From the NCBI RefSeq assembly GCF_003473485.1, contig NC_053049.1, forward strand, positions 7,192,001-7,256,000: a stretch of 64,000 nt of DNA, written 5' to 3'. This stretch comes from Medicago truncatula (lineage: Eukaryota; Streptophyta; Magnoliopsida; Fabales; Fabaceae). The stretch's first letter is position 1, and every line of letters begins with the position of its first letter. Positions 24,141 through 61,670 of this stretch are shown here, in pieces. The notes under the pieces are model-generated. The model worked only from the letters and a program-made list of their open reading frames with translations. It was not told the origin of the DNA and did no database searches. A program made the translations under genes and the position numbers.

Positions 24141-24726
24141 CTATAGTATCTACTCAAAGAATACTTGTCGTCATCCCTAATTGTGCGTTAACACTCCTCA
24201 ATTCAAAATGACATAATAGCATGCTTGTTGAGGAAAAATTATTGCCTTTATTATAACAAAATTAGTTAATTTTTCTTTTGAGGAAAACTGAATTAGTTAA
24301 TGAAAATTAAGTAAACGACTATGAAGATAATTTAAATTTATACAAATCGTCACTTGACCAATCTTATTGCAATAAATTAATAAAAAGTCATTTCAAAAAG
24401 ATTTGTGGCTGATCCTTAAAAAATAAAATCATTCCGTGACAATTTTTTTTTAATCTTTTTTAAATCTTTATTCTAAACCTTCATCTCACTTCTGTCACAT
24501 ACAACTCAAACATCCACGTGCAATCAATCTCAATGAAAGATTAGACTACAGGATCTTTTATTATTACTCTTTGTGTACACGAACTGAATTCACTTAAGTG
24601 TTGCTTAAAATTCTAATTTTAGAGTTTACATGAATTGAAAGAACATATGTTGACTCACTTATTGTAACCTTACGTGAAATAAGACAACATATGTGTATGT
24701 ATTGCTTTAAAAACATTGAAGGTAAT

Positions 24727-24850
24727 ATTAGAAATGGTGGTTGGGTCTAACACAACCCTACAAAACCGGCTTGTGAGGTGATGATTGCCCCCACTTATAA
24801 ACAAATTGTCAAGCCAACTCCTAACCGATGTGTGACTCTTAACAGGTAAA
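24727..24850. repeat. Interspersed repeat inserted in block A
   Basis: Contains GGTTGGGTCTAACACAACCC and GGCTTGTGAGGTGATGATTG. It is absent from block B, where the flanking sequences join directly (near 37078). Related pieces lie at 46493-46684 and 47474-47520. Confidence 0.65.
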
Positions 24851-26094
24851 CTGAATTTAAGTAGGGTATATAAACTGAGTTTGCAAATTACAACTCTAAG
24901 TAAATTAAGATACTTGATATATATGTAAACTGAGTTCACATAATTTACGTAAATCGAGTTTACGTAGGCTATGTAAATCGAGTTTACATGGGCTAATGTA
25001 AAGTGAAGTGCTTAAAACTTGATACACCGCGTTCTTGAAATATTGCATAAATGGAGATGAACACTTAAGGGGTTGAACGATAGTGAAGACAAGTGTTTGA
25101 ATCTAATGGAGATGAATGCTTTTGGTTTCTAGAGATGGAGAGAACGACACATTCTAGATTTGCGATTGGATTTTGAATACCATTGAAAATTTATTACTTT
25201 TTATGGGTATATTTTTCATTTCCGGATGTAACCAGCATTTTAGGGGTTATTCTAGAAAAAATATAAATATTTTAATTAGTAAAATTACAACCCAATATTT
25301 TTTAATCTTTGATTTTCTTATTTAAGTTTTTTTTAGGGTGTATTACTATTTCAATATAATTTTTGTAATATCTAATGTCGTGCAATTAAACACCACCGTT
25401 TATATCGTGTGTATATATATAAATATATTTACCTAATAATCATTACGTACCAAATCTTGATGAGATTAGCAGAAGATCATCACGTGGACCAAGGGACTTG
25501 TATGAAATACATCCTTCACGAAGAAGAGATCGCTCGCCAGGTTGTGTGGGGTCATCTCGAAGGACATGATTATGATATTATGGATATATGATATATATAA
25601 AATATACAAAATATATGGGGGTTTATTGGTAAAAATAAAATAAAATAATACATGGGGATTAATTATTGCTAAGAATAAATTATTTTGAAATACTCCCCTA
25701 TTTATTTTAAATTCTCTTGACCAAATTTTTCTTTTTTTAAAATTCATTGAAATAAACCAAAAACAAATACTCCATTTCTAACAAAATATAGACATAAAGA
25801 GGATCAAAGCGTCAAATAGTTTTGCTCTCAATTTTTTTAATTTTAGAACATCTTTTGTTTATGTTTTCGTTACAAAGAGTATGCAAAATTAGACTGACTT
25901 ATTTTAATTCATTTATATATAATATATAATAGTATTTGTGATAATGTTTGTTAGAACCTATGAAAATAATTTATAACATCTAAGTTTAATTCCATAATTT
26001 TTCAGAATAGTTTATAGAAACAACTTAAAAAATATATTAAATATAAATGTTTTTTTTGTTTTAAAAAAGTATATAGAAATATTTATATCGATAA

Positions 26095-26097
<3 letters not shown>

Positions 26098-26125
<28 letters not shown>
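26098..26125. repeat. (TA)n microsatellite
   Basis: About 14 TA units in block A; in block B the corresponding run (37788-37800) is much shorter. Confidence 0.9.
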
Positions 26126-26238
26126 TATGAAGTAAAAAAATCCTTTATATATTATAAACGATTAATTATTTTGTTTATTCAAATATCACCTCCTATATTT
26201 TTTGTTGTTGTTGGAAAGACATCCAAAAACTAATCATT

Positions 26239-26312
26239 TTTGGTGGTGGTCGGGGTTCAACCCTGTATATATTATGCATCGTCCCTACCCTTTGAGTTAA
26301 GTTCACGAGGAC
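26239..26312 (-). mobile_element. Short tRNA-like retroposon (block A copy)
   Basis: On the minus strand a box A-like segment (CTTAACTCAAAGGGTAGGGA) and a box B-like segment (CAGGGTTGAACCCC) lie about 30 bp apart. The 74-bp insert is flanked by the perfect 16-bp direct repeat CCAAAAACTAATCATT (26223-26238, 26313-26328), the mark of a retroposed tRNA or SINE. No CCA or discriminator context supports a live tRNA gene. Confidence 0.75.
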
Positions 26313-26340
26313 CCAAAAACTAATCATTGATACGCGATAA

Positions 26341-26342
<2 letters not shown>

Positions 26343-26390
<48 letters not shown>
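26343..26390. repeat. (AT)24 microsatellite
   Basis: Perfect AT run next to the left end of the long-inverted-repeat element. The block B equivalent is at 38015-38050 with fewer units. Confidence 0.95.
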
Positions 26391-26392
<2 letters not shown>

Positions 26393-27415
26393 ACAAAAAT
26401 AAATGATAAGCATTTATTCAAATTGATAGAGTTCATCGATACAATACAAATTCGATAAAAATAAAAAGGATGAATTTGCGAACAAACTCATAGCATCCAT
26501 GTTAATATCATAAAACAACAAAGTACAAAAACCTACTCATGTAACTATATTCAAGTATCCGGAATACCCATGTCTCCGGATCTGCAACATGGACGACGCA
26601 AAGTCATAGAATGAATCTGCACTAGTCGAAGCAGATATGACAATCTAAACCGAACAAATACTTGCATGAAACAAGAAAGACAAACAATGTTGCACAAAGA
26701 CGACTAACAAACCAACGTCGCACTATGACGACAAAATCACAAAATAAAAAACAAAATAGATGTGAAAATCACTTATTACAATTAAAAGGAAAGAAAAAAG
26801 CGAGTTAGAAGGGTGATTTAGGGTCAAAAATTGACTCTAAATCACCTCTATTTGATAAATATGGGAGAAGAAACTACAGTTTTAGTGACGTCTCACAAGA
26901 AAGAAAGAGAAAAGAGAGTTTATAGAACGATATAGGTATCTCTAAGTAAATTTGTCAAAAAAAAAAAAGTGTCACTAAGTAAAACATAGATAAAATAGAG
27001 AATCAATATGGAAATATATAAAAAAAATGCAAACAAATAGAAGACCGTAGATATGTTAAATTAATTTTTAGTTATAATTTATTAAATAAATTTTTTATTA
27101 ATTAAATTTGTCAAAAATAAAACCTTATTAATTTAAATGACTAAAAAATGAGTGATAATGTGTCAACAAAATTCACTAAAATCTCTGGCCATCACCCCTT
27201 TCTTCTTCTTGTCTATTGAAGAGGGATGGTTTAGGGTCTATTCTAAGTTCTAACATAAAATCATTCATCGGAATTATTTTTCCTTCTTTTCTAGTTGAAT
27301 AAATGATTTCCATATATTTTTTATTCTTCTTTTGTTTGTTTTTGTGATTTCATCGTCTTTACACGACTCTATTTATTTTAATTTTTCGTCTTAATGTGGT
27401 GTTTATTTGATCCAA
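26391..27415. mobile_element. Long-terminal-inverted-repeat element, copy in block A (right arm truncated)
   Basis: The left arm (from about 26395) and the right part (27180-27415) are imperfect complements over several hundred bases, for example GATTTAGGGTCAAAAATTGA against the reversed GGTTTAGGGTCTATTC, and the TCACAAAATAAAA segment against TTTTGTGATTTCATCGTC. The outer right arm present in block B is deleted here. No transposase frame. Confidence 0.65.
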
Positions 27416-27806
27416 ATATCCACGAGATCATATGGTTTACGTACTGATTTATATTATATTACTTTTTTTGAAATAATTTACATTATATTACTAAAAAAAT
27501 GAAGACGCATTGGTGGCATATGAACTGGGACCGTCATTGCTTTATTATCATTGCTATATGTAGTTTTTATTTCATATGCTTGGGCCTATATTATATGGTC
27601 AGACTGTATTATATTTGGATCTTCTTACAGGTAAGCTGAATTTTATAAAATTTGAATCATCAAGAAGGTAACGTTTTCCATAGGACAAACATGAGTTACT
27701 ATAATTTAGACATTATCAATCCTTTGTTTTTTTCGGATAATTTTTTTATAAATTCTTCTTATATCACATATTATATTTTTTACATTTCCCTCCCTCTCTA
27801 CCTCCC

Positions 27807-27814
27807 TATAAATA
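27807..27814 (+). promoter_or_regulatory. TATA box of GLP3
   Basis: TATAAATA lies 66-73 bp upstream of the ATG and directly follows a CT-rich tract (27787-27805). The same arrangement recurs before GLP4. Confidence 0.8.
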
Positions 27815-27879
27815 GCTTGCCAATTCCATCGTTCCCTCATACCAAGTTCAATAATCAATAATCATCATCCAATAATAAG

Positions 27880-28509
27880 ATGAAGATTATTCACATAGTT
27901 TTTCTTTTCTCTTTTCTTTCATTCACTACTTCCCAAGCTTCTGTCAATGATTTTTGTGTAGCAGATTTAAAGGCTCCAGATACCCCTTCAGGCTATCACT
28001 GCAAACCCCTAGCAAATATCACATCAGACGATTTTGTCTTTCATGGCTTCAAAGCTGGAAACACCAACAACTCTTTCAACGCTGCACTTACCTCCGCATT
28101 CGTCACTGATTTTCCAGGCCTTAATGGACTAGGAATCTCAGCAGCGCGGTTAGACATAGCGGAAAATGGTTCAATTCCAATGCATACTCATCCTGGTGCT
28201 ACCGAATTATTGATAATAGTTCAAGGTGAAATAACCGCTGGATTTCTGACACCTACCGCAGTTTATTCTAAGACGTTGAAACCGGGTGATCTTATGGTTT
28301 TTCCACAAGGGATGTTGCATTTTCAAATTAACACTGGTAAGGGAAAAGCAACTGCTTTTCTTACTTTTAGTAGTGCTAACCCTGGTGCTCAATTACTTGA
28401 TCTTCTTTTGTTTTCGAATAATTTACCTTCTCAATTGGTGGCACAAACTACTTTCCTTGATCTTGCACAAGTGCAGAAGCTAAAGGCACGTTTTGGTGGA
28501 AGAGGGTAG
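27880..28509 (+). CDS. Germin-like protein, ABP19/GER3 type (GLP3)
   Basis: Secreted cupin, 209 residues, no intron. Signal peptide about 1-20 (ending TSQA). Cysteines C26 and C41. Possible N-glycosylation at N46 (NIT) and N63 or N64 (NNS). Box 1 ligands H102, H104 and E109 (HTHPGATE); box 2 H147 (FPQGMLH): the complete Mn site of germins. Lies in block A; its near-twin GLP4 differs at only six residues (11, 40, 58, 77, 127, 185). ATG is the first in frame after the TATA box. AATAAA at 28677-28682, within TGAAGTAATAAATTGTGTG, a 3' context shared by GLP3 and GLP4 and close to that of GLP5. Expected in the apoplast; enzymatic activity cannot be read from sequence. Confidence 0.95.
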   Translation: MKIIHIVFLFSFLSFTTSQASVNDFCVADLKAPDTPSGYHCKPLANITSDDFVFHGFKAGNTNNSFNAALTSAFVTDFPGLNGLGISAARLDIAENGSIPMHTHPGATELLIIVQGEITAGFLTPTAVYSKTLKPGDLMVFPQGMLHFQINTGKGKATAFLTFSSANPGAQLLDLLLFSNNLPSQLVAQTTFLDLAQVQKLKARFGGRG

Positions 28510-29111
28510 GGATATGATATTGTTTGGTCATGATCATAACCCACTCTCCTTGTGTAAATGTTTATTCCAATAATCACCTAGTGGTGGATTTGATTGTGTG
28601 TCTGTGTTATTTTATTTTATTCTATGTTTTAGCTATTCCAAATGTTATGATATATGGTTACTTGTGATAATGAAGTAATAAATTGTGTGTGATACATTTC
28701 TTGGTTCCTCTTTCTATCTCTCAACCTGTCTCCTAATTTTTTTGTTGAATTATGGCAACATTTAAAATTGAATTGAAGATTGAATGAGCACGACCTGGAG
28801 ATTATGATTTAATTAGCTCAATCACTTGAATCACAATTGAACTAAATGATTAATCTATAAATAAAAAAAGTAATTGCAAAAACAAATCTTATTAAATTAT
28901 TACGATTCAATCGGTTCAACCTTATTCAAAATGACTTCGATGCGACTATGATTTCTAACCCATTTTATTTTAGATTTAACTAGTTGAACTAATAATTTAA
29001 TAGAATATGCAACTTAGACTTATTTACCATTTTTGGGTGTTAGAAGTTAGAAAATTTTACATGATGTGGATAACATCACAATACAATTCAAAGTAGTGGG
29101 CTATAATTTAT

Positions 29112-29293
29112 GAGAAATGATATTTGAACAATAATTTTTAACAACTTTTGTGACAACTTTATCTCTCATACTCACATTAATTTTTTACTCTCTCTCTATT
29201 GCTTTGGTTTTTGTGTCACTATCTCATTTCTTTTGCAAAATTTTGATTGTCACAAAAGTTGTCACATGTATGGATGTTCATATAACACAACTC
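29112..29293. mobile_element. MITE with 9-bp TSD, absent from block B
   Basis: A 182-bp insert flanked by ATAATTTAT (29103-29111, 29294-29302). Block B has a single ATAATTTAT at the same site (41061-41069), a true empty site. The ends are inverted (GAGAAATGATATTTGAACA against GAGTTGTGTTATATGAACA), and inner ACAACTTTTGTGACAAC pairs with its complement. The 9-bp duplication suggests a MULE-type MITE. A relative lies at about 37150-37283. Confidence 0.88.
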
Positions 29294-29679
29294 ATAATTT
29301 ATTCATTAAAACCTTACTTATATATCAACAAGCAAAACTAGGCGTAAGACGATTGAGTCAGCCTCTACTTGGTAGTTGGTTCTAATCTCATTGCCATTGC
29401 TTCGGTGCATCAACCTCGAGAGTGTGGAAACGGTAAATTGGTTTGCGAGTACTGATTCGCGGTATTTTAATGAATTTGTTTGCGCAAAATCGTGAGCAAT
29501 TCATAGCAAAGTGCGTACGTGACAGAAGTATAAAACAAATCAAACAAGTTTAATTCAAATTTCACATATTGTATGTCAAACACAATAAATATCTGACCAA
29601 CTTGATAGAAGAGCTCATCTGCCATGAACATGCAGCAACCATTAGTGCAAACTGTAAAATTAGGTCATAGAAAATTCAA

Positions 29680-30011: not shown

Positions 30012-30159
30012 AAAATTCAAATGCATAGTAGTGTGTACCACTACCAACCTGGATGTTGTGCAGGGGCAGCTAAGAAGCTTATAGTAAAATGGTCATATAG
30101 AGATTAAGGTTCTTGTATATGCAAAAACAATGATTATAAAGAGTCATATATTATATATA

Positions 30160-31970
30160 GGCTTAAATAAGTAAAAGGTCTCTGTAAGTTGGCGCATTTT
30201 TGGTTTTAGTCCCTGTAAGTTTTTTTGTTGCGAGACAAACCCTGTATTTACCAAACGTTTTGGATCTAGTCCCTGCCGTCCAATTCCGTGAAAAAATGAT
30301 GACCTTGCTAACGGAGCAATACGTGGCACTTCGTGAGTTGGCACTAGTTGATGACTGGGGTTAATATAGGGACTAAAACCAAAAATGCAATTTAACATAG
30401 GGACTAATTTAAAAAAACGTAATCATCAATTTTTAAATTTTAAAAACCAGTCTTTCCTTCTTCTTCCTCTCTCTGTTCTTTCCTTCTTCTTCCTCTATTT
30501 GTTAGTTCTTTAATTGCTTGTGCCCAAAAACTCAAACCTCATTTCCTTCAACGATGTCTTCTCATTCCATTTCTCATTCATCATCAAATGAGTTGCCTAT
30601 AAGTGCCAATTACTTCTTTAAGTTCTGCTTCATTTGTTCCTCCTTGAGTCTCCAAAAGCAAATCAGTGATAATTACTTCCATTTGTTTCCCCTCGCGCAC
30701 CTTAATCTTAGCCCATCCAACCAAGTTTGTGTCACCAAAATCCTCCTTATCACCAGGCCTTTTCCCATTAAGAAGTTCCATCATTACAACACCAAATGAA
30801 TAAACATCACCCTTTGCAGTGCACCTGAAACTTTGGTAATACTTTGGTGGAACATATCCAGGTGTTCCTGCTAGTGTGCTTACACTGAGATGTGTATCAA
30901 GTGCACTTATTAGTCTTGCCATTCCGAAATCCAAGACTCTTGACTCCATTTCATTGTCAAGTAATACATTGCTTGACTTCATGTCTTTGTGTATGATGTG
31001 AGGGATGCAATTATGATGCAGAAAACAAAGTCCTTTAGCAGCACCTCTTGCAATCTTCTTCCTTTCTTCCCATGTTAAAATTCGTCGATCACATGTCTTT
31101 ATTCTTCTGTGGAGCATCTCTTCTAGGCTTCCATATTCCATGTATTCATAAACAAGTAGCCTCTCTTCTCCTACTTTGCAGTATCCCAATAAAGGGACAA
31201 GGTTTTTATACTTGATTTTTTCTAAGGTTTCCATCTTAGCCATGAATTCTCTATCACCTTGGCAACTCAGTCGAATGAGCTTCTTTATCGCGACACATGT
31301 TCCGTCTTTGAGTGTGGCCTTAAACACTTCACCAAAACCACCACAACCAATGAGGCTTGCTGCTGAGAAGCCATTGGTTGCTTCAATCAACTGTGAGAAT
31401 TTAAGCTTTCTCAATTACCTCTGAAATGTTGCAATATTAATGCATAATGGCTCTTTCTCTTTATCAATTTTCCATGTTGTAGCAGCATGACATGCGAATT
31501 GGAGATGAACATCCTCATAATTTTTCTACAACCACATATTGACAACTCATTTGATGATGATTGACAAATGGAATGAGAATACATTGTTCCATGAAATGAG
31601 TTTTTGGTGTTAGGGCGCAAAGCTATCGAAGGGTGGGAATGGCAGAAATGAAGAAGAGAGAAATAACATAGTGAGGAAGAAGGTGGAAATAATAAGTTTT
31701 AAAATTCAAATTTTGATGATTATGTTTTTTATTTTCATCCCTATGTAAATTTGCATTTTTGGTTTTAGTCTCTCTAATAACCAATTGCCAACTCATCATA
31801 TGCCACATATTAGTCCGTTAGCCAGCGAAGCGTTTTTTTGACGGAAACGGACGGCGGGGACGAATGTCAAAATGTTAAGTAAATACAGGGGTTGTTTCGC
31901 AACAAAAAAAGATACAGGAACTAAAACAAAAAATGCGCGAACTTACAGGGACCTTTTTCTTATTTAAGCC
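30160..31970. mobile_element. Pack-MULE carrying a receptor-kinase fragment
   Basis: An 1811-bp element flanked by perfect 9-bp TTATATATA (30151-30159, 31971-31979). It starts GGCTTAAATAAG and ends with the complement CTTATTTAAGCC. The terminal inverted repeats are about 430 bp long and imperfect, and run inward to CATCATCAAATGAGTTG on the left and its complement on the right. The interior (about 30605-31525) is a BRL2-like kinase fragment. No transposase. These are the hallmarks of gene capture by a Mutator-like element. Confidence 0.92.
30605..31525 (-). pseudogene. Captured BRL2/VH1-like receptor kinase domain fragment
   Basis: Minus-strand reading from about 31525 resembles the juxtamembrane and kinase region of BRI1-like 2 (CHAATTWKIDKEKEPL, then INIATFQR). 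A stop (TAA at about 31412-31414) replaces the Gln expected before LRKLKFSQL. After it an open frame of 276 codons carries the Gly loop ([11 protein letters not shown]), the lysine VAIKK, and subdomains VI-IX. The catalytic HRD is HKD; DFG is kept (LDFGMAR); the PPE motif is PPK (GYVPPKYY). It breaks off after AELKEVI, in the TIR, and lacks subdomains X-XI. It cannot be an active kinase and has no LRR or membrane segment. BRL2 is intron-less elsewhere, so lack of introns says nothing about an RNA intermediate. Confidence 0.88.
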
Positions 31971-32172
31971 TTATATATATATTGTTCATCTTCAAAATGT
32001 CACGACGACAACGTAAATTAATGCGGCACTGCAAAAATAATATCACTAAACACAAACTGAAACAAATTTCTAGGGAGATATTCCTGATGGCAGTTGCATC
32101 GTTCAAGACAGAAGTAATTGTTCTTTAACTTATTTTCTAAATACGCATACAATTGTAAAACACAGTCAAATT

Positions 32173-32302: not shown

Positions 32303-32403
32303 CTGCCAATACAAAAGATTAACAGTGTTCAATAAAATCCTATATGTTAGGAAACAAAGTGCTGAAGAAGAAAAATAAGCACAATCACAATATAAGAATA
32401 TAA

Positions 32404-35179
32404 TGTTAGGAAACATGGTATCCATGAAAAGAAGGAGAGAAAACTAAGAAACTCTTTCTATTGATGAAAATGGAATATTACAAAATGAGAAAAGTACCCT
32501 CTAATGGGGTGGTTACAAGTTATTTATACTACTCTCTACTAGGACTAATATGCTACTAATCTATATCTCTAATAGTCCCCCTCAAGTTGGAAGGTGTTCA
32601 AAACACTTCCAACTTGAAATGAGAAAATACAAGGAAAGATGCCAGAAATACATTGGCCAAGAACATAGCAACAATCAAAGGCTTATCCAACAAGAGGAAA
32701 CCACAACTCAAGGTGTAATCACCTTGGAGGAAGAAGCAGCAAACCAACGCTTAACCACCATCCGGTAGAAGCCAATCATCAACAAAGCCTTAAAAGGCAC
32801 AATGCTTAACCATCAAGAGTTCTCAATAACTCAAGACAGAAGCACAAGAAGAAGAAGAAAATGACGCTTAACCATCCTTGGACAGAAGCACAACGACGCT
32901 TAACCATTCATGACAGAAGCTTATCAACATAGCTTAACCATCATGAACAGAAGCACAAGACAAGAAGAGTAAGGATATCTAAAATCAATGATGATATCCA
33001 AAAGAAAAAGTGCAAGGAAGGGCCAAAGTTTACAATGGAAGGAGGTCATATGTTGAACAAACTGCACATCAAAGGTACCATGAAGCAACAAGACCAAGGT
33101 TCCAAAGTTAAAAAAGAGATGCGCTCCAATGCCGAGCCGAGACAAGAAAAACCAAATGCAAGCCAATAGAGATGCATAGCCATGTGAGGTGTCTTCAAAC
33201 CATAGAAAACAAATCCATGTTGATGCATTCAAACCATAGGCCAACAAATCAATACTTCCAACAATGAAGCTTAAGAAAATACCAACATAGCCAAAACCAG
33301 AAAAAAAAAAATGCAGCAGTAATGCTGCACAAAATAAAACCAAAATGCAGCTAAGAGACATCAAAATGAACTCAAGAAGATGCTTTAACGGTCTGCCCAA
33401 AAATTCATCAACGATCCAGGAACAATCCCATGCTTCAGATATCAAACCAAGGCTTCCAAAAACGATCCTAAGCCATCAAGAAATAAATCCATAGCCAATG
33501 AACAAAATGCAGTAGCAATATGAAGCACTGTACTGTGTTGGAATAGCATGCAACACTAACAAAATGCCTAATCAGCCTCACAATTTCATTTGTTCCTTTC
33601 ACACACAAGAATATAGAGAAACCATCTGAACAGCTTGGAGTGTACTAAAGGCTTCTTCAATTACTATTCAAAAAATGCTTGACCATATCAGATCCAACAC
33701 CATGATAAGCAATCAAATGCCAAACAAAACTTAGCCCACCAGTATGCAATATCTATAAGACTACCAAGTGTGATAGCAACACCATAAAAGAAACAAAGAA
33801 GTATGCCAAAACCAATGATATCCAAAGAGAATGTAGAACAAACAACCAAGCTGTAATTGGATCCCAAAGAATGCATCAAAAAAACTATACGTGAAAGGAA
33901 GATCCTTACATAACACTGCAACAACATAGCCATACACATAAGTCTGGGACCGCCAATCTTCAATCATCATATAAGAGTACCTTAACATGAACTGCTCCAA
34001 AAATGTAGTAGTGATGAAGAGGTTCACAAGAAAATGCACGCATAGACCAATAACGTCATGCAGCAGTCAACAACAGCACCTCAAAGCAAGTCCAATGCAA
34101 TGTTGGATCAGAACAAATTGCAGTGTTACCAACAACCATCACCATCAAACTGAACGTAATATGCAATAAGGACCAAAAAACACCAAAATATCAAGGTAAT
34201 AGAATCCAACTCTATCTGCACCACATGCACAATTGTATACAACCAGAGAAAATGAACTAATTGCAGCCTTGTCTAAATAGCAGAACATAGAACTTCATCA
34301 AAAGAATCATGAACCAAGAATCAATATGTTTGCAGTGAGGACTTGCTACAAACATCTTGTGAGCACAATAGTCATAAACTGCAGTTACAATAAAACTCGC
34401 TTATGAGAAACCGAATTCTCAATACAATACAATAATGAAACAGGGAAGAAGATGAAATATCAACGACACATAGAATCAATGCGAAAAAGACGACTCTGAG
34501 CCGAATCGAAAATTTTAATGAAGAGGAATCGCAAAAAAAAATAAAATTGAATCACGGATTCGAATCGAAACTGGAAATTGCGATCGAGTAAGAATTCGAT
34601 CAAGACTTTTGAATCACGTGGGAAATTGAACCAAAACTAACAGAACAAAGAAGAACGAACAAAGAAAATTGATCGAGAGAGAAAAGGAAATCGCCATTGT
34701 AACTGAATCGCAAACCCTAAGATTTGGGAAAAAGACACAAACGGAATCACGAAGCAATCGATCGAACAAAAAGATGTAAAAGAATCGAATGAAATTGAGA
34801 TGCAGATCAAAAGAGAAATCGATCGAACAAATCAATAACAGAAAAACGATTCGAGTACAAGACAAAGGAAAATGAAGAAAATGAAGTGATAAAAGAGAAA
34901 AATCAGAACGAAGAAGAAAAGGAAAACAACACGAGAAAAATGAACTTTTCTCGAGAAAATGCAGCGGAAAAATTGTTCAAGGTGGATACCAATCATGCTC
35001 TGATACCATGTTAGGAAACATGGTATCCATGGAAAGAAGGAGAGAAAACTAAGAAACTCTTTCTATTGATGAAAATGGAATATTACAAAATGAGAAAAGT
35101 ACCCTCTAATGGGGTGGTTACAAGTTATTTATACTACTCTCTACTAGGACTAATATGCTAATAATCTATATCTCTAATA
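32404..35179 (-). mobile_element. Young non-autonomous LTR retrotransposon (2.78 kb)
   Basis: Minus-oriented, with 171-bp LTRs at 35009-35179 (5') and 32404-32574 (3'). They differ at two positions that I can see. Flanked by TATAA (32399-32403, 35180-35184). The primer binding site TGGTATCAGAGC (complement at 34997-35008) abuts the 5' LTR and matches initiator tRNA-Met. A purine tract TTGAGGGGGAC abuts the 3' LTR (32575-32585). The 2.4-kb interior encodes no gag or pol; it contains repeats of GACGCTTAACCATC and ACAGAAGCACAA. Its size lies between TRIM and LARD elements. It must depend on proteins of another element. Confidence 0.93.
35009..35179 (-). repeat. 5' LTR of the young non-autonomous element
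   Basis: Identical to 32404-32574 except for G/A at about 35031 and an A/C change near 35161. The TGGTATCAGAGC binding site follows immediately at 34997-35008 on the minus strand. Confidence 0.92.
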
Positions 35180-35523
35180 TATAACGTGGAAACTTTAAAA
35201 CTGGATAAAAAACCACGACCGTTGTCTAAACCGACAACCAGAAAATGATTACTATGGGATTTTTTTTACAACACATAGACTTCTCTCACTCTCACCCCAA
35301 TGCTCCAGTACAATCATACTCTCACAAAGCAAATATTTAAACTAAGTCAGATATAAGCTTAAAGTGCTACTGACTGGTGCATCTACAAACAAAGAACCTA
35401 GGTCCAATATATAGTCATGGTCCTCCCATTGCTTCACCACACTAAGCGATGTAGGACTTTTCCAATAGCAAATATTTTTTAACCTCCTTATTTATTTAAG
35501 AAACTTGACAATCAAACCCAACA

Positions 35524-35740
35524 ATCTCCACCTTGATTGTACGAGTTTCATCTTTCGCTTCCATTGTTTATACTGACAATCATACTCCACCATAAAGAGT
35601 ATACTTCACTTGAAACTAGACCTTTCCAAGAATTTCTCCACGTCAAAACCTTGCTGAAAGATTACGGTGCAACTCCCATGTTGGATTTCAGGAAGTTCTT
35701 CAGCCATCGACACATCTCACCACACACCTTGCATTAATTA
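35524..35740 (-). pseudogene. 3' internal remnant of the old copia element
   Basis: Sequence next to the polypurine-like tract of the 3' LTR. It corresponds to the untranslated 3' end of a copia interior, ahead of the CTCCACC(TT)GATTG motif common in such elements. No frame is recognisable. The right limit is approximate. Confidence 0.5.
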
Positions 35741-36498
35741 ATTTCTTAAACAATTTATAATTAATTTGTATCTCGTTTAAAGACTACAAAATTTCATTGT
35801 GAAGGTTCTTATCATGTTCTAGTCATGCCTACAAAATTAGGGAACTAAATTTGACTTGTGAGTATACGCTTACGCGGAACAAAATTTCAATTTTGCATGT
35901 TTTGATTGAAAAATCAAAATAAATTTAAACGACTTCGAAATGCAATGAAACTTTACAGATCCGTTTTATGTATTTTTTTATAGATGTCTATGCAAATAAT
36001 GAGCTCAAAATTCGATTTATAGGTCGAGATTTCCATTGTTTTGTTTTTTGAGCTTTTGACACTTTAAAAATTCATAATTAATTTGTCGTATGTCGAAAAT
36101 TTATATATTTTTAGTGTAAAGCCATATTTTAACATTCTTAACTCGCCTCTAACAAATCATGAAAAAAATTGAATCTCTCGGTTTCTTTTTTGGACTTCGC
36201 ATATATTACAGAGTTATAAATAATAAAAATCTTGAGTTACATGGTAAGAATACATGTTATTTAATTACAGGGCCAATTTTCAGACTTCACGTATATTATA
36301 TGATCAATTTCAATTAATAATCTTATTTTAAATTGTACTTTTGTTGACTAAATGATAAAACCTATTTTATTTCGATTTTTTTAATTAAAATTAAAATTAA
36401 AAAAAAAGTTTCAATTTATGATTGTTGATATATTATGTCGCATGTGAATTTGCGATAAATTTTTTGCCCAATCTCCATAAATTTCCAGACTCCGCCAC
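35741..36498. other. Segment of unclear origin between copia remnant and block B
   Basis: About 760 bp of AT-rich DNA that ends exactly at block B with CAGACTCCGCCACTG. Its complement CAGTGGCGGAGTCTG resembles the terminus of plant hAT-like elements. The matching opposite terminus was not found, so it may be a truncated DNA transposon. Confidence 0.4.
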
Positions 36499-37149
36499 TG
36501 TATAGTACCTACTCAAAGAATACTTGTTATCATCCCTAATTGTGCGCTAACACTCCTCAATTCAAAATGACATAATAGCATGCTTGTTGAGGAAAAATTA
36601 TTGCCTTTATTATAACAAAATTAGTTAATTTTTTTTTTGAGGAAAACTGAATTAGTTAGTGAAAATTAAGTAAAAGACTATGAAGATAATTTAAATTTAT
36701 ACAAATCGTCACTTGACCAATCTTATTGCAATAAATTAATAAAACGTCATTTCAAAAAGATTTGTGGCTGATCCTTAAAAAATAAAATCATTCCGTGACA
36801 ATTTTTTTTATTCTTTTTCAAATCTTTACTCTAAATCTTCATCTGTCACACACAACTAACTCAAACATCCATAGACGTGCAATCAATCTCAATGAAAGAT
36901 TAGACTACAGGGTCTTTTATTAATACTCTTTGTGTACACAAATTGAATTCACTTAAATGTTGTTTAAAATTCTAATTTTAGAGTTTACATGAAATGAAAG
37001 AACATATGTTGACTCACTTATTGTAACCTTACATGAAATAAGACAACATATATGTATGCATTGTTTTAAAAACATTGAAGATAAACTGAATTTACGTAGG
37101 GTATATAAACTGAGTTTGCAAATTATACAACTCTACGTAAATTAAGATA

Positions 37150-37283
37150 GAGAATGGAGAGAGAAAAAGGAAGATAGAGAATAAGAAGATAATGTGAGTA
37201 TGAGAGAGAAAGTTGTTAAAATGTTTTTTTAAAGAAAAAAGTTGTTAAAATGTTGTCACAAAGTGGATGTACAAATATCATTT
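37150..37283. mobile_element. MITE-like piece in block B
   Basis: Ends with the complement of GAGAAATGATATTTG, as in the MITE at 29112, and contains duplicated AAAGTTGTTAAAATGTT. It replaces the 0.6-kb stretch found at the same place in block A. Left end uncertain. Confidence 0.5.
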
Positions 37284-37916
37284 CTCTATATAAAATATAC
37301 AAAATATATGGAGGATTATTGATAAAAAAAAACATGGGGATTAATTATTGCTAAGAATAAATTATTTTGAAATACTCCCCTATTTTTTTTTTTAAATTCT
37401 CTTGACCAAATTTTTCTTTTTTTAAAATTCATTGAAATAAACCAAAAACAAATACTCCATTTCTAACAAAAATATAGACATAAAGAGGATCAAAGCGTCA
37501 AATAGTCTTGCCCTCAATTTTTTTTACTTTTAGAACATCTTTTGTTTATGTTTTCGTTACAAAGAGTATGCAAAATTAGACTGACTTATTTTAATTCATT
37601 TATATATAATATATGGTAGTATTTGTGATAATGTTTGTTAGAACCTATGAAAATAATTTATAACATCTAAGTTTAGTTCCATAATTTTACAGAATAGTTT
37701 ATAGAAACAACTTAAAAATATATTAAATATAAATGTTTTTTTTTTGTTTTAAAAAAGTATATAGAAATATTTATATTGATAAGCTTATAATATATATATA
37801 TTATGAAGTAAAAACATCCTTTGTATATTATAAACGATTAATTATTTTGTTTATTCAAATATGACCTCCTATATTATTTTTTTTTTTGTTGGAAAGACGT
37901 CTAAAAACTAATCATT

Positions 37917-37990
37917 TTTGGTGGTGGTCGGGGTTCAACCCAGTATATATTATGCATTGTTCCTACCCACTGAGCTAAGCTCATGATGAC
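37917..37990 (-). mobile_element. Short tRNA-like retroposon (block B copy)
   Basis: Same insertion as at 26239. Box A here is intact (TTAGCTCAGTGGGTAG on the minus strand), with GGGTTGAACCCC as box B, and the flanking 16-bp repeats have drifted by one base each. Its presence in both blocks dates it before the duplication. Confidence 0.72.
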
Positions 37991-38012
37991 CCAAAAACCA
38001 ATCATTGATACA

Positions 38013-38050
<38 letters not shown>

Positions 38051-38052
<2 letters not shown>

Positions 38053-39280
38053 ACAAAAATAAATGATATGCATTCATTCAAATTGATAGAGTTCATCGAT
38101 ACAATACTAATTCGATAAAAAGAAAAAGAATGAATTTGCGAACAAACTCATAACATCCATGTTAATATCATAAAACAACAAAGTACAAAAACATACTTAT
38201 ATGACTATATTCAAGTATCCGGAATACCCATGTCTCTAGATCTGCAACGTGGACGACGCAAAGTCATAGATTGAATCTGCACTGGTCGAAGCGGATATGA
38301 CAATCTAAACCGAACAAATACCTGCATGAAACAAATAAGACAAACAATGTTGCACAAAGACGACGAACAAACCAATGTCGCACTATGACGGCGAAATCAC
38401 AAAATAAAAAACAAAATAGATGTGAAAATCACTTATTTCAATTAAAAGAAAATAAAAAAGCGAGTTAGATGGGTGATTTAGGGTTAAAAACTGACTCTAA
38501 AACACCTCTACTTGATAGATGAGGGAGAAGAAACTAGAGTTTTGGTGACGGCTCACAAGAAAGAAAAAGAAAAGAGAAATTTATATAACGATATAGGTAT
38601 CTCTAAGTAAATTTGTTAAAAAAAAAAAGTGTCACTAAGTAAAACATAGATAAAATAAAGAGAACCAATATGGAAATATATAAAAAAATGCAAACAAATA
38701 GAAGACTATAGATATGTTAAATAAATTTTTAGTTATAATTTATTAAATAAAAATTTTATTAATTTAATTTGTCAAAAATAAAACCTTATTAATTTAAATT
38801 GACTAAAAAATGAGTGATAATGTGTCAACAAAATTCACTAGAATCCCTAGTCGTCACCCATTTCTTCTTCTTGTCTATTGAAGATGAATGATTTAGGGTC
38901 AATTCTAACCTAAAATCACCCATCCGAATTGTTTTTCTTTCTTTTCTAGTTGAATAAGTGATTTCCATATATTTTTTTATTGTTCTTTCGTTTGTTTTTG
39001 TGATTTCATCGTCTTTGCATGACTCTGTTTATTTTGATTTTCCATCTTAATGTCGTGTTTATTTGATTGAGGTTGAAATATTAGCTTTGATTAGGTGCAA
39101 ATCCGAAGACATGAGTATTCCAGAGATTTGAATATAGTCAGGTTTGTAGGCATAAATACTTTGCAGTTTTATGTTAACATGAATGTTGTGATTTATCCTT
39201 TTTGTTTTTAGAGACTTTAAATTTATATTATATCGATATACTCTATAAATTAAAATGAATGAATATCGTTTATTTTTTTT
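38051..39280. mobile_element. Long-terminal-inverted-repeat element, complete copy in block B
   Basis: The left arm begins near AAAAATAAATGATATGCATT and the right arm ends near AATATCGTTTATTTTT. Reversed, the right arm repeats the landmarks TTCATTCATTTTAATT, AAGGATAAATCACAACATTC, GACTATATTCAAAT, GGAATACTCATGTCT in the same order as the left. Arms are roughly 350-420 bp, making it foldback-like. Single arms lie at 13676-14130 and about 48745-48870. No transposase. Confidence 0.7.
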
Positions 39281-39765
39281 AAAAAAAGTCAGCAGAATTA
39301 AAATACTATGATTTGCTAATTTGCTCATTCACCTATATTGTTTAGTTGGTTTATATTAGTAAGTTGGAATATATTATTATCCATGAGATCATATGGTTTA
39401 CGTACTGATTTATCTTATATTATTTTTTTTGAAATAATTTACATTATATTACTAAAAAAATGGAATCGTATTGGTGGCATATGAACTGGGACCGTCATTG
39501 CTGTATTATCATTGCTATATGTAGTTTTTATTTCATATGCTTGGGCCTATATTATATGGTCAGACTGTATTATATTTGGATCTTCTTACAGGTAAGCTGA
39601 CTTTTATAAAATTTGAATCATTAAGAAGGTAACGTTTTCCATAGGACAAACATGAGTTACTATAATTAGACATTATCATTCCTTTGTTTTTTTCGGATAA
39701 TTTTTTATAAATTCTTCTTATTTCACATATAATATTTTTTACATTTCCCTCCCTCTCTACCTCCC

Positions 39766-39773
39766 TATAAATA
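39766..39773 (+). promoter_or_regulatory. TATA box of GLP4
   Basis: TATAAATA follows a CT-rich tract exactly as in GLP3, 66-73 bp before the ATG, so the core promoter was copied with the gene. Confidence 0.8.
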
Positions 39774-39838
39774 GCTTGCCAATTCCATCGTTTCCTCATA
39801 CCAAGTTCAATAATCAAAAATCATCATCCAATAATAAG

Positions 39839-40468
39839 ATGAAGATTATTCACATAGTTTTTCTTTTCTTTTTTCTTTCATTCACTACTTCCCAAGCTTC
39901 TGTCAATGATTTTTGTGTAGCAGATTTAAAGGCTCCAGATACCCCTTCAGGCTATCAGTGCAAACCCCTAGCAAATATCACATCAGACGATTTTGTCTTT
40001 CATGGCTTCGTAGCCGGAAACACCAACAACTCTTTCAACGCTGCACTTACCTCCGCATTCGTCACTGAATTTCCAGGCCTTAACGGACTAGGAATCTCAG
40101 CAGCGCGGTTAGACATAGCCGAAAATGGTTCAATTCCAATGCATACTCATCCCGGTGCTACCGAATTATTGATAATAGTTCAAGGTGAAATAACCGCTGG
40201 ATTTCTGACACCTACCTCAGTTTATTCTAAGACGTTGAAACCGGGTGATCTTATGGTTTTTCCACAGGGGATGTTGCATTTTCAAATTAACACTGGTAAG
40301 GGAAAAGCTACTGCTTTTCTTACATTTAGTAGTGCTAACCCTGGTGCTCAATTACTTGATCTTCTTTTGTTTTCGAATAATTTACCTTCTGAATTGGTGG
40401 CACAAACTACTTTCCTTGATCTTGCACAAGTGCAGAAGCTAAAGGCACGTTTTGGTGGAAGAGGGTAG
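39839..40468 (+). CDS. Germin-like protein, recent duplicate of GLP3 (GLP4)
   Basis: Secreted cupin of 209 residues, no intron. Relative to GLP3 it has S11F, H40Q, K58V, D77E, A127S and Q185E; all other residues agree. Metal ligands H102, H104, E109 and H147, cysteines C26 and C41 and the glycosylation sites N46 and N63/N64 are unchanged. The frame is open from 39776, but the ATG at 39839 matches GLP3 and starts the signal peptide. AATAAA at 40636-40641. It has a complete copied promoter but lies inside an old copia element, antisense to it, and its block lacks the upstream stretch found at 25.0-25.6 kb in copy A. It looks functional; expression may differ from GLP3. Confidence 0.94.
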   Translation: MKIIHIVFLFFFLSFTTSQASVNDFCVADLKAPDTPSGYQCKPLANITSDDFVFHGFVAGNTNNSFNAALTSAFVTEFPGLNGLGISAARLDIAENGSIPMHTHPGATELLIIVQGEITAGFLTPTSVYSKTLKPGDLMVFPQGMLHFQINTGKGKATAFLTFSSANPGAQLLDLLLFSNNLPSELVAQTTFLDLAQVQKLKARFGGRG

Positions 40469-41257
40469 GGATATGATATTGTTTGGTCATGATCATAACC
40501 CACTCTCCTTGTGTAAATGTTTATTCCAATAATCACCTAGTGGTGGATTTGATTGTGTGTGTGTGTTATTTTATTTTATTCTATGTTTTAGCTATTCCAA
40601 ATGTTATGATATATGGTTACTTGTGATAATGAAGTAATAAATTGTGTGTGATACATTTCTTGGTTCCTCTTTCTATCTCTCAACCTGTCTCCTAATTTTT
40701 TGTTGAATTATGGCAACATTTAAAATTGAATTGAAGATTGAATGAGCACGACCTGGAGATTATGATTTAATTAGGTCAATCACTTGAATCACAATTGAAC
40801 TAAATGATTAATCTATAAATAAAAAAAGTAATTGCAAAAACAAATCTTATTAAATTATTACGATTCAATTGGTTCAACCTTATTCAAAATGACTTCGATG
40901 CGACTATGATTTCTAACCCATTTTATTTTAGATTTAACTAGTTGAACTAATAATTCAATAGACTATGCAACTTAGACTTATTTACCATTTTTGGGTGTTA
41001 GAAGTTAGAAAATTTTACATGATGTGGATAACATCAGAATACAATTCAAAGTAGTGGGCTATAATTTATTCATTAAAACCTTACTTATATATCAACAAGA
41101 AAAATTATTCGTAAGACGATTGAGTCAGCCTCTACTTGGTAGTTGGTTCTAATCTCATTGCCATTGCTTCGGTGCATCAACCTTAAGAGTGTGGAAACCA
41201 TAAATTGGTTTGCGAGTGCGCAAAATCGTGGAATTGCTAAAGTACTAAGATGATCAA

Positions 41258-41534
41258 TATTAATACATTCGAGTTTTTTCTAGAGTTCTTTGGCTGATGA
41301 CAGATTCTGCACATTCGCAAGAACATTCTTTGCCAAACATAGACGAATCGCACTTGTAACTCTCAAATCTAGTCCCTCCCACTTATCGGCCTCCATGTTG
41401 GAAGTGTTTCCTTTCAGCGCCTTGTGTAATTCTGATTGTTTCAACACATACTTGACTTGTGCTTTCCACAAGTCAAAGTTGATTATTCCATCAAACTTCT
41501 CTATGTCAAATTTGATTGCGCATGAATAAAACAC
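41258..41534 (-). pseudogene. copia gag N-terminal fragment
   Basis: Minus-strand translation KFDGIINFDLWKAQVKYVLK, then LHKALKG, DKWEGLDLRVTSAIRLCL and NVLANVQNLSSAKEL is the N-terminal gag region of Ty1/copia elements. The Trp normally after AKEL is a TAG stop (about 41280); beyond it KKLECIN continues the homology to about 41258, where it ends abruptly at block B. No start codon context is preserved. Confidence 0.85.
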
Positions 41535-41674
41535 ATCAGCTGCACAGTACCACCCTTCTTTAGCACCTTCACAATATCACTTTTTTTTTTTTTATGTGAA
41601 GATCAGACAATGCTGCAACCACATAACATACTAAGACTTATGATATCTCACCAACCAGAAGCTCTTGATACAAC

Positions 41675-42037
41675 TGTTAAGAAATAACAGAGCTGAAGAA
41701 GAAAAATAAGCATAATCATAACACAAGAATATAACGTGGAAACTTCAAAATTGGAGAAAAAATCATGATCGTTGTCTAAACCGACAACCAAAGAATTATT
41801 ACTATGTAATTTTTTTTACAACACATAGACTTCTCTCATTCTCACCCCAATGCCCCACTACAGCATCACTCTCACAAAACAAATATTTAAACTAAGTCAG
41901 ATATAAGTTTAAAGTGGTACTAATTGGTGCGTCTAAAAACAAAGAAATCTAGGTCCAATACATGATCTTGTCTTTCCCATGCTTCACCATACTAAGTGAC
42001 GTAGGACTTCTCCAATAGCTAACAATTGAACCCAACA
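41675..42037 (-). repeat. 5' LTR of the old copia element
   Basis: 363 bp with TG...CA ends (minus strand TGTTGGG...TTAACA), similar to the split LTR at 32345-32403 plus 35185-35523. It lies directly upstream of the gag fragment in element orientation and is followed on the outside by CTATA. Confidence 0.8.
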
Positions 42038-42042
42038 CTATA

Positions 42043-43471
42043 AACTTGACAATCAGATTCAAATGAGAAGAGAGAGAAAATAAGGGTCAAAAGATTGAAC
42101 CAATTGCAGCAAAAAATCCATTTTATATAGTTGTGTCCAAACAAACTAAATTACTTTTTTTTTTTTTGATAAAAAAAAAATAATTTTTATCACGGTAAAC
42201 AAACGTAAAATAAATTCTGATTTTTTCTTTATAAAATCTCTAAAAAATAATTTTTAAATTATTCAATGTAAAAATCACTTTTATCTTAATCTATAACAAG
42301 AGACTCTTATTAGTTTAAAATACGAATATAGAAAAAAAAATACATTAAATTGTGAATTATTGTAGAAACCCCATGTATCAACACGTCAACTAGCTAACGG
42401 ATGTCTATATATGTCTGTATATGCCTAGTTTGAACTTCATTTATAGGTTTTAATAAAATATTATTTTTGTTCTCAATTATTGTACTGTTTTAAAATTTAC
42501 TTTTCACTAAAAAAAAAAATAGTAAAAGACTACTATTAGACCATTTTTTAGAGGTTCATACTAGGTATAAGTTACAAGTTAGTTGTGTGTTACGAGTTTT
42601 TGTGTTGTAAACATAAGTTACAAAGTTCAAATATCATATTCTTCAATTATTTTTTTAATTTTTAGTTTTGGTAATAGTGGACCTTTTTTTTCTTCAAGCA
42701 ATTCAAGGTTTAATTAGAATTTCAATATTCAGATGAATAAGTGAGAAATCTAAGTCTAAAGACCCACTTTTGATATATAATACAATGTCTTTACCGACTG
42801 AGCTAGACTGAGGAGAATAATTTCATTTATAATTCTTTTTCATCTTCTCCATAATACTTTTTTTCTTCCATATTGGTCTTTTAATCTCAAATAAAATAAA
42901 GTCTTGTGTCAATCGACATTCTATTCTCATCTCAACTCTAAACCTTCCAAAATTAAGTTAACAAGAAATTTAGTTTTTCAATTTTGTATAAGTTAAAATT
43001 TCCCCCTTTTATTATATTTCATATAAATAAACAATTTAAGAATTTAATGTTTAATTTTATATAAATAAAGAACACATAATTTGGTAAGTCATTTCTCATT
43101 TTTGTAAGTATTTCCATATAATTTTTGCATGATCTGATCATGTCATGCACTGTAATCAAACACCACCGTTTACATGGAGTATAATTTAGATAAGTTACGT
43201 GTTAAATAATGACGAGAGATCAGCAGAGAATACTGAATAGCATGACCGTCAATTATTGATATCTATGCATGCATGAGTGTTTGTGTCATGACTCATCATC
43301 TTCCTTTCTTTACCTTTATGAAGGAGAGTCACCTTTAGCCCACCAGGTTGTGTAGGGTGATCTTGTCTCCTGATTCTCATGGTTGATTGTGATCTTGTTG
43401 ATAATTTATTAGGGGACTAATTATCAATATTAATGCTTATATAAACTAATGTTAAAAGCTTGGTATCCCAC
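42043..43471. other. Intergenic DNA upstream of GLP5
   Basis: No gene seen. From about 43150 to 43400 there are islands shared with 25380-25560 upstream of GLP3 (ATCAAACACCACCGTTTA, CCACCAGGTTGTGTAGGG). A tRNA-like GACTGAGCTAGACTGAGG near 42797 is not convincing as a gene. Confidence 0.5.
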
Positions 43472-47520: not shown

Positions 47521-49277
47521 ATTTAAATTTAAAATCATCCATTTCTCTACACTCACTAGACTATTTGTCAAAAAAATAAAAAGAAAGAAAAATATATGTA
47601 GATAGCTTTACCTATATTAGTTAAATATTTTTAACCTACACTACTTTCAAATTGCATCATGACATAAAAAACCCGTATTGTGTTATTTTCAGTCTCTTTC
47701 TTCCTTGATTTTTTATTATTTCAAATGATATATAAAATTTATTTAATATCCAAGATATGGGAGTGACATCGTGAAGATTTGGAAGTTCAAATGAAGGATA
47801 TATATATACATGGGACTTCACCATTGATTTTTTCTTAAAAATATCGACCTAGATGTCAAGGAAACAAAACCACGAATCAATTTGATCCTTATTAATTCAA
47901 ATGGACAGAACTTAACATGTTTCTTGGATTACTTGATTCAACAAGCATATTCTCATTCTACACGATTAATAGATATAGGAAAATTCTATGGTGAAGTCAT
48001 GCAAATGATTTTCTGGTGACGTTAAATGGTGAATCATTGATCATTTGTGCGTTTAATTCATGTCACGTCAGATTATATGGCGTATTAGACATTTTCCCAT
48101 AAGATGTATTATTATATCTTTACTTATTGCAATTGTATTCCTGATTAAATCAAAATTAGACATAGATTTTCATTTGTGCACTAAGATTGAAATTCCTCTT
48201 AATATTTTGTATGAGGATTGATTTGTAATAAGATAAAGTTTAGTTTTAGAGTGGTTCACAAACAGGACACTAGTTGATATGACATCGACAGTTATACTAT
48301 TGCCTAAACAAAATAATTTTTTCAAAAAGTTAATTTTCTAACTGCACCGTAGAAGTTCCCTATTTCCGATTTCATCTAGCTTCAAAAGTTATTAATAGAT
48401 CTTCTATTGCTTCAAAAGATAAGTTTTATTTATTTATGAAATGGAACAGTGGCATATGGTGATGAACATATGATTGGAATGTGAAGTTCGAATGAAAGAG
48501 TTTCTTTTTTTTTATTTTTTTTTTATATACCGTCAAATGAAGGATATATTTGTGTATGACTTTATATGGGAAAATAGGGTTATCAAACCCACGTATTTAC
48601 CAACCAAACTGAATGTTTGTAATTGTTTTAGTATTTGAGGCAAAAGAGTTCTGAAATGAAGCGACAAAGATAGAATTCAAATCTCACCACAATAACAAAT
48701 TGACTATATATATATATATATATATAGGCTTAGATATTTTGCTGTTAATGCTATTAACATGGATGATGTGATTTTGTTCCACATTCATTCTTTTTTGTTA
48801 TTGGTAAATTTGAATTTGTAATGCATCGATGTACTCTATCAATTTTAATGAATGAACATCGTTTATTTTTTAGTAGAAAAGAAACTCCTTATAGCATCCG
48901 TTCACTCGTTCCCTTTTCAACAAATCTTGCCAAGATTTCTAATAAAATTAATGAAAGATAATTTTTTATCACACCTTACTTGTTTCTTGCACGTTCTCTT
49001 ATCGGAATTTAGATTTTACATCATGAAAGTGTAAAACGCGTTTTAATAAACCCTCTATTTTTTAGATTTTGTAATCCAAAAGTAAGGCGCGTGAGAAGGT
49101 CGGAAGATGCATGAAAAAATAGGTTCTCTTAATTTGGATTTTTTTGTAGGACTTCCACTTGTTAAAAAGTAATTATAACAAGAATAATCAAGCAGAGTAG
49201 CAGACAAAACCACCACATCAACTTTCAATTTATTTTTAACCATAAACATAAACAACATAATGCAAACTTCTTGCTTA
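47521..49277. other. Intergenic DNA, no gene seen
   Basis: AT-rich DNA with an isolated arm of the long-inverted-repeat element (about 48745-48870), a TA run (about 48706-48726), and the 3' flank of the first SABATH gene. Confidence 0.5.
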
Positions 49278-53507: not shown

Positions 53508-54177
53508 TCTTGCTTCTTTTAGCTTTATTTCTCTCTAGATATAAATTTATGTTGTGTAATGTGCACTATCATTTAAAAGATATGTTGAGTAATGTGTACA
53601 CTAACCATTATTGCGAGTGCTACATCAATGGGGCCATCCCTGTTATTTTTACTTTTTTAAACAATATCTATTAACTTTATTGTACCTACCATTATTGGCT
53701 GGGTTTTAGATGTAGATATTCTTCTCCTTTAATTTATATATTTTTTATAATAAAAACTATAAATAAATTTAATTATTTTTTATCTTAATCTACGTAAGAA
53801 ATTTAGTGTCACAACCACATTAACATATTTGAACAAAATATATATATATGAATGACCTAAATAAGAAAAAATAAATAAAAAGACTAAAATGCTATAAATA
53901 AATAAGATAAATGACTCCAAGATGATTTTTGTCCAAAAAATATCAATGCTCATTGGCATAATATTTATTAGAAATAATTACTTATAAAAAAATCAAGCAA
54001 AACAATCCAACCAATTCGAATTGAGTTTAATGAACGGACATGATGAACTAAGGTTTGAATCTCATTGAAAGACACTTTAAATATGAGTATCTACAAACAA
54101 ACAATCCGTCACAATGACTTTCAATATCTTTTTTTAATCAAAATAATACAAACTAGAAAAAACAAACTTCTTGCTTA
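53508..54177. other. Region between the two SABATH genes
   Basis: 670 bp containing the promoter of gene 1 (read on the minus strand) and the 3' flank of gene 2. No TATA box could be assigned with confidence; AT-rich runs are frequent. Confidence 0.5.
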
Positions 54178-55822: not shown

Positions 55823-56164
55823 TCTTGTTTCTATTAGCTTTAGTTTTTCCTTTCTAAGTCTTTTGATGGAGTGTTCTTGTGTGCTTAATGATAGGTCAAA
55901 CAACTAACACATATATAGATGTGATGTTATAATGATATCGTGATCACTAAAAATTGAACTATACTTTCCTCAAAAAAAAATAAAAATTGAACTATACTAG
56001 AATAATACCTAACATTGACTTAAAAAAAAATAATGTCATAATCACAGGTCATACACTGAAAAATATCAATTAAAATTTGGACACCCTTAATTTTAAACTC
56101 TTGATCAAGATATTCTGTCACCTCACATGCTTTTATTGTCTTTTTCCTTTTTTCGTTGACGAAA
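55823..56164. other. Upstream of SABATH gene 2
   Basis: Probable promoter region (minus strand) up to the edge of the 1.8-kb tandem duplication. No element can be assigned. Confidence 0.4.

Positions 56165-61638: not shown

Positions 61639-61670
<32 letters not shown>

Follow-up and report, generated by a model that had tools for sequence, protein, structure and literature searches.

The window analysed here, 64 kb of Medicago truncatula DNA (C8:7192001-7256000, contig NC_053049.1), contains an old copia-type long terminal repeat (LTR) retrotransposon that holds a complete germin-like gene and its upstream region between its LTRs. The best reading of this arrangement is that a host gene with its upstream region was duplicated locally inside a dead element and was not mobilised by copia. 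More specifically, we suggest that a germin-gene segment lying nearby (block A) was copied by break repair into a gag-only copia element that was already in place, giving rise to the copy termed block B, and that a hAT insertion, a deletion, partial gene conversion and a nested copia insertion followed, a history to which we assign a probability of about one half.

A germin-like gene between the LTRs of one copia element

The outer element is an LTR retrotransposon insertion, with LTRs that have TG..CA ends and share the same (minus) orientation, and with the matching 5-bp target duplication CTATA beyond both outer ends (Table 1), as the initial annotation had recognised. Its estimate by eye that the LTRs differ by more than 10% is likewise borne out, since the alignment gives 50 differences at 361 sites (13.9%, p = 0.139; Kimura two-parameter distance (K2P) 0.157; 37 transitions and 13 transversions), plus a gap of ~35 bp. 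A site resembling a primer-binding site (PBS) and a gag fragment are found on the right side, and a stretch resembling a polypurine tract (PPT) together with ~210 bp of copia 3' internal sequence common to relatives on the left, PBS and PPT both being judged by eye. The annotated arrangement, with 5' LTR, PBS and gag on the right and PPT and 3' LTR on the left, can thus be retained, except that the left interior is copia only to ~35734 and then passes into hAT sequence.

Between these two parts lies block B, a copy of block A in the same orientation and ~12 kb distant from it, which includes the complete cupin gene that had been described there. The product of this gene matches Cupin_1 (9.7e-38) and is related to oxalate oxidase 1 (germin; 2et7_A, 3.3e-37), and with both the cupin domain and the germin similarity present it is predicted to be a germin-like protein. 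The gene copies of blocks A and B differ at 13 codons, with the amino acid altered at 6 of these. When the genome (430 Mb in 42 contigs, a single genome, as in all genome searches reported here) was searched with the left 650 bp of block B, ignoring very common words, the single other substantial match was block A, besides two short matches on C3.

Table 1. Features of the locus in window coordinates
Feature	Position	Strand	Remarks
Block A	24142..29450	+	Other copy, with intact germin-like gene and own insertions
Germin-like gene of block A	27880-28509	+	Intact frame
Left target-site duplication (TSD) CTATA, outer copia	32340..32344		Matches right copy
Outer 3' LTR, distal piece	32345..32403	-	LTR alignment
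Nested copia-type element	32404..35179	-	Splits outer 3' LTR; LTRs 32404-32574 and 35009-35179
Outer 3' LTR, main piece	35185..35523	-	LTR alignment
Copia-family 3' interior with PPT side	35524..35734	-	Relatives match to 35733-35738, then diverge into other sequence
hAT fragment	35737..36500		Right-hand 764 bp of a nonautonomous hAT (~1.2 kb, positions 473-1213 retained); left end gone
Block B	36501..41217	+	Direct copy of block A (24142-29450); window self-comparison
Presumed 8-bp hAT target TATAGTAC at block B edge	36501..36508		TATAGTAT in block A (24142-24149), without hAT
Germin-like gene of block B	39839..40468	+	Intact frame, 209 aa, Cupin_1
Scrambled joint	41218..41267		13-mer, two copia gag pieces in swapped order, 11 bp without clear assignment
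Copia 5' internal region	41268..41674	-	Primer-binding side, truncated gag with in-frame stop
Outer 5' LTR	41675..42037	-	Lacks ~35 bp near start relative to 3' LTR
Right TSD CTATA	42038..42042		Matches left copy

Short relatives of the copia element

Searching the genome with the LTR, with the best 40 of 84 candidates scored, yielded 41 matches, several of them in pairs 1-1.6 kb apart. In two relatives that align from end to end, one on C5 (near 36.627 Mb; 36.6266-36.6285 Mb) and one on C1 (near 6.196 Mb; 6195.6-6197.5 kb), the points equivalent to ~35738 and ~41268 are separated by 598 and 607 bp, respectively. The C5 relative encodes Retrotran_gag_2 (3.6e-31) and zf-CCHC, and no pol is present in its printed frames. 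Both relatives are flanked by target duplications, AAAGT on both sides of the C5 and AATTA on both sides of the C1 relative, and these short elements therefore moved as such. The 79-aa gag piece of the window itself returned no match in a Pfam search.

These relatives do not support the proposal of the initial annotation that block B stands where pol should be, and loss of pol to the insert was rejected, given that both relatives aligned over their full length are short inside and that the one examined shows gag only. Judged from these relatives, the window copia most likely never had pol, and ~0.55-0.6 kb of its interior would have been lost. We take the relatives to resemble TR-GAG, gag-only nonautonomous LTR elements, in their copia LTRs, PBS and PPT, gag with a CCHC knuckle, 5-bp TSDs and an interior of ~1.2 kb that lacks pol in the one examined; the window copy departs from TR-GAG in being broken and in containing a host gene segment. 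Block B sequence was found in none of the 47 copia-family loci fetched (29 places, ~1.5 kb of flank each, loci overlapping), and the idea that block B belongs to a mobile copia family is rejected on this count. Two near-identical short copia relatives located ~9 kb apart at C7:5686869-5699485 (loci L004, L008, L020, L060 and L061) probably sit in a local duplication.

Divergence of the LTRs and of blocks A and B

Blocks A and B differ at 189 of 4254 sites (4.4%) rather than by the ~3% initially estimated, and the differences are spread unevenly. The K2P distance is 0.021 in the gene core (27417-29102; 35 of 1683 sites), compared with 0.063 in the upstream region (145/2413) and 0.059 at the right end (9/158). 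A foldback stretch within the upstream region is itself repeat-like and more diverged, and the tests were repeated without it (65/1344, raw 4.8%). On total sites the LTRs are more diverged than the A/B upstream region, both with this stretch (50/361 versus 145/2413, Fisher p = 7e-7) and without it (50/361 versus 65/1344, p = 2e-8). The copia insertion is thereby supported as the oldest event by total divergence, whereas transversions alone, considered below, leave the order undecided. Together with the absence of block B from the 47 family loci and the repair-like joint, the excess of LTR divergence upholds the earlier view that the block landed in a pre-existing copia.

The core is less diverged than the upstream region (p = 5e-10), and the same holds for its non-coding part (21/1053; p = 6e-8, or p = 2e-4 without the foldback stretch). 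Because the non-coding core is also affected, the pattern suggests that the gene core of blocks A and B was homogenised later by gene conversion, rather than being conserved by protein selection alone. The initial caveat that gene conversion might have homogenised the two blocks is thus partly borne out, the divergence of the gene core being two- to threefold lower than that of its flanks.

Each block also has rearrangements of its own. Block A alone contains an insertion of ~190 bp (29103-29293), bordered on both sides by the 9-bp sequence ATAATTTAT, which we take to be a Mutator-like miniature inverted-repeat transposable element (MITE); a related piece with similar ends is present in block B at ~37150-37286. 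The foldback-type repeat of block B (38055-39279) has inverted arms and related copies at ~13.7 kb (13734-14093) and ~48.8 kb, and the copy in block A lacks one arm, with ~309 bp gone after 27416.

The scrambled right joint

Contiguous A/B homology stops at 41217 (29450 in block A) and copia gag pieces start at 41228-41231, such that gag homology does end near block B as described, with a boundary tighter than the annotated gap of 15-20 bp. From left to right, the joint consists of GCGCAAAATCGTG (41218-41230), GAATTGCT (41231-41238), AAAGTACTAAGATGATCA (41239-41256) and 11 bp, after which gag resumes at 41268. The 13-mer GCGCAAAATCGTG occurs at only two sites in the window, at 41218 and at 29482-29494 in block A, 31 bp past the break, and 14 of the 15 gag-holding loci have in its place GCGCAAATTGTG, which is one substitution and one indel away. 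In all 15 fetched loci with both gag pieces (overlapping loci that represent 7 genomic places, with up to 3 edits allowed per piece), AAAGTACTAAGATGATCA is positioned 41 bp left of GCGCAAATTGTGGAATTGCT, whereas the window has it 21 bp to the right. The joint shares a run of up to 18 bp with a relative, compared with at most 14 bp in 2000 single-base shuffles. Since short local pieces have been swapped and the 13-mer is common with block A, the right joint looks like a break-repair scar with templated filler or template switching. Filler DNA and synthesis-dependent strand annealing (SDSA) in plants are described in PMC4423477 and PMC3445842.

A truncated hAT element at the left edge

Block B alone had been taken as the insert; instead, a truncated hAT element intervenes between copia and block B, and the left duplication edge of block B is gone. 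The sequence 35737-36500 is high-copy (875 candidate places in the genome, of which the best 40 were scored), and was rejected as copia interior. Full copies measure ~1.21 kb and have the termini CAGGGGCGG and CCGCCACTG; among ten copies aligned at both ends, the 8-bp duplications are exact in six and agree at 6-7 of 8 positions in the other four. On the basis of the CAGGGGCGG..CCGCCACTG-type termini and the 8-bp target duplications, the repeat can be classified as a hAT element, of which the window copy keeps one terminus. Comparison of the hAT against the 64-kb window revealed no other part of it and no left terminus.

The remaining terminus, at 36500, abuts block B (TATAGTAC) directly, and block A has at TATAGTAT different DNA to the left, which is single-copy. 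The left edge of block B is therefore the hAT boundary, and the true edge of the duplication has been lost; an insertion beside a hAT end can in this way hide where a duplication began. At 714 sites, the hAT copy carries 17 changes that are strictly its own (2.4%), which is close to the A/B value and far below the 49 expected at the age of the LTRs.

Proposed history of the locus

In the history that we favour, a short gag-only (TR-GAG-like) copia would have inserted at CTATA and decayed; the insertion itself is evident, and the gag-only type is suggested by the relatives. A double-strand break or a stalled fork may then have occurred within the copia gag region, with repair possibly templated by the germin-gene segment ~12 kb off. 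Approximately 4.7 kb or more would have been copied into copia and joined via short template switches, leaving the scrambled 50-bp right joint. The hAT may have inserted where the copied DNA ends, unless it was already present, and a deletion, visible in the present structure and placed only provisionally in the sequence of events, would have taken the left part of hAT, the further left flank of block B and ~0.55-0.6 kb of copia interior. The gene core of blocks A and B, the low divergence of which is measured directly, may have been homogenised later, and a second copia inserted into the outer 3' LTR.

Several observations weigh against this history. The left duplication edge is gone, and with it any means of showing a second switch junction, and a tandem duplication followed by deletion yields an identical present structure. 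With transversions alone, the difference between the LTRs (13/361) and A/B is not significant, either for the whole upstream region (54/2413, p = 0.14) or without the foldback stretch (28/1344, p = 0.12), and methylation-driven transitions could therefore inflate the age gap. The hAT branch in a tree (0.054) exceeds the A/B per-lineage value of ~0.03, which favours the presence of hAT before the duplication; the strict count of private changes, unlike the branch, gives no sign of hAT predating the duplication, and because the two measures disagree, divergence does not settle their order.

The pairing of the outer LTRs is subject to a similar reservation. Other LTRs of the family match the window 5' LTR up to 88%, against 85% for the window 3' LTR, and a tree of 31 LTRs places the window LTRs as sisters with a support of only 0.60, the 3' LTR being nearer in path length to other copies than to the window 5' LTR. 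None of five closely spaced control LTR pairs (from two elements near 5.69 Mb and one near 22.96 Mb on C7, and from one element each on C5 and C1) were sisters in the same tree, which makes it a weak test, and the origin of the outer LTRs from a single element therefore rests mainly on the target duplication.

Alternative histories

A tandem duplication could have extended from the left of block A into copia, after which the DNA separating the end of the second copy from gag was deleted, and a hAT insertion and a left deletion took place. Blocks A and B do lie 12 kb apart in the same orientation within a germin-gene array (nine germin-like matches in C8:7209218-7274661, 7.209-7.275 Mb), and a deletion repaired by end joining would likewise leave fillers from both sides at the right joint. 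This course nevertheless requires one more large event, in which duplicates of the kinase fragment and of the 3' LTR were lost, and self-comparison of the window reveals neither duplicate near block B. We therefore regard a tandem duplication as possible but doubtful; break repair is the simplest account of the structure, given the additional event that tandem duplication needs.

The junction of hAT and block B raises the prospect of a reversed-ends transposition, in which hAT termini within copia attacked TATAGTAT beside block A and generated a direct duplication, with a later deletion joining block B to gag. PMC3744419 reports that reversed-ends transposition of maize Ac/hAT makes tandem direct duplications and that fractured hAT elements are found at duplication starts. 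Similarly, A/B homology starts at the first base past the hAT terminus, so that the second copy begins at a fractured hAT terminus with its 8-bp target (TATAGTAC/TATAGTAT), the site is intact in block A, and the hAT branch in the tree (0.054) exceeds what blocks A and B have each diverged. However, a plain hAT insertion into block B followed by a deletion gives the identical boundary, and the private changes of hAT (2.4%) allow insertion after the duplication. Unlike the maize Ac duplications, the window has no partner element, further hAT part or left terminus, and the rest of the expected unit does not follow block B, which stops at 41217 on gag without a second kinase fragment or 3' LTR. 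With an extra right-hand deletion also required, we consider this route unlikely. Were it true, the process known from maize would have operated in a legume-like genome, with a hAT copying an intact segment of host DNA with its gene, placing the duplicate inside a retrotransposon and still marking the edge of the duplication with its terminus.

Copying in the reverse direction, with block B the older copy within copia and block A derived from it along with the joint 13-mer, would account for the presence of the partly gag-like GCGCAAAATCGTG also in block A. However, the 13-mer is exact in block A and the copia relatives differ from it by a substitution and an indel, block A has 31 bp extra between the two parts, and its left flank is single-copy with the hAT target uninterrupted, all of which render this direction improbable.

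Retrotransposon gene transduction, exemplified by maize Bs1, also places a host gene between LTRs. That copia brought the gene segment in on insertion, by transduction or by template switching during reverse transcription, would fit the location of block B wholly within one LTR pair with a matching target duplication, and transversions alone are compatible with equal ages, but we judge it highly improbable, as total LTR divergence (K2P 0.157) is above that of A/B (upstream flank 0.063), block B comprises long intergenic DNA with the upstream region and foldback or MITE-like repeats, the joints appear to be repair scars with the right one scrambled, the inner part is apparently younger than the LTRs, and none of the fetched family loci carry it.

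Comparison with known systems

Local copying by break repair, the history preferred here, has parallels in the grasses, where the repair of double-strand breaks near transposable elements with foreign filler DNA (SDSA) reportedly moved genes (Wicker et al. 2010). The Medicago locus resembles such cases in that a gene-bearing segment served to fill a break at a transposable element, and in the donor being intact. It is distinct in that the donor is located 12 kb away, the recipient is the interior of an old retrotransposon, and hAT together with a deletion erased one edge. SDSA gene movement near transposable elements in grasses is also described in PMC3445842, which cites that study. Seen in this light, the locus is a well-preserved case of a known plant gene-duplication route, not a new element type, and it cautions that a host gene flanked by LTRs is not necessarily a retrotransposon capture. 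With an intact gene and its upstream region in an old element and scars that are still readable, it offers a case of local plant gene copying whose origin is open to relative ordering. Among the literature matches listed, none describes this locus.

Other features of the window

The nested copia-type element that splits the outer 3' LTR is flanked by the TSD TATAA at 32399-32403 and 35180-35184, and its LTRs differ at 2 of 172 aligned sites (1.2%), which makes it the youngest insertion by LTR divergence. Its interior of 2.4 kb has a longest listed frame of 173 aa, and it is a recent and probably nonautonomous insertion.

The repeated sequence AAACTTGACAATCA, which the initial annotation had pointed out near the start of the 3' LTR and outside the 5' LTR, is real, with a 13-14 bp LTR-like stretch outside the 5' LTR (42043-42060) having its counterpart at 35496-35515 in the 3' LTR; a flank/LTR match of 13 bp was reached in 2 of 2000 single-base shuffles. 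The 5' LTR lacks about 35 bp at the region of this LTR-like stretch, which possibly reflects another small rearrangement.

Five germin-like genes are present in the window, all on the plus strand, at about 17.2, 23.0, 27.9, 39.8 and 44.1 kb. Between blocks A and B, a receptor-kinase-like frame of 276 aa on the minus strand (30584-31414; Pkinase, 1.3e-38) overlaps an inverted repeat pair (30146-30605 and 31533-31982; region 30146-31982). Further to the right, positions 49221-62946 form a direct-repeat array with units that are 71-94% identical, inside which lies a 135-aa frame on the minus strand (55089-55496) that is presumably methyltransferase-like.

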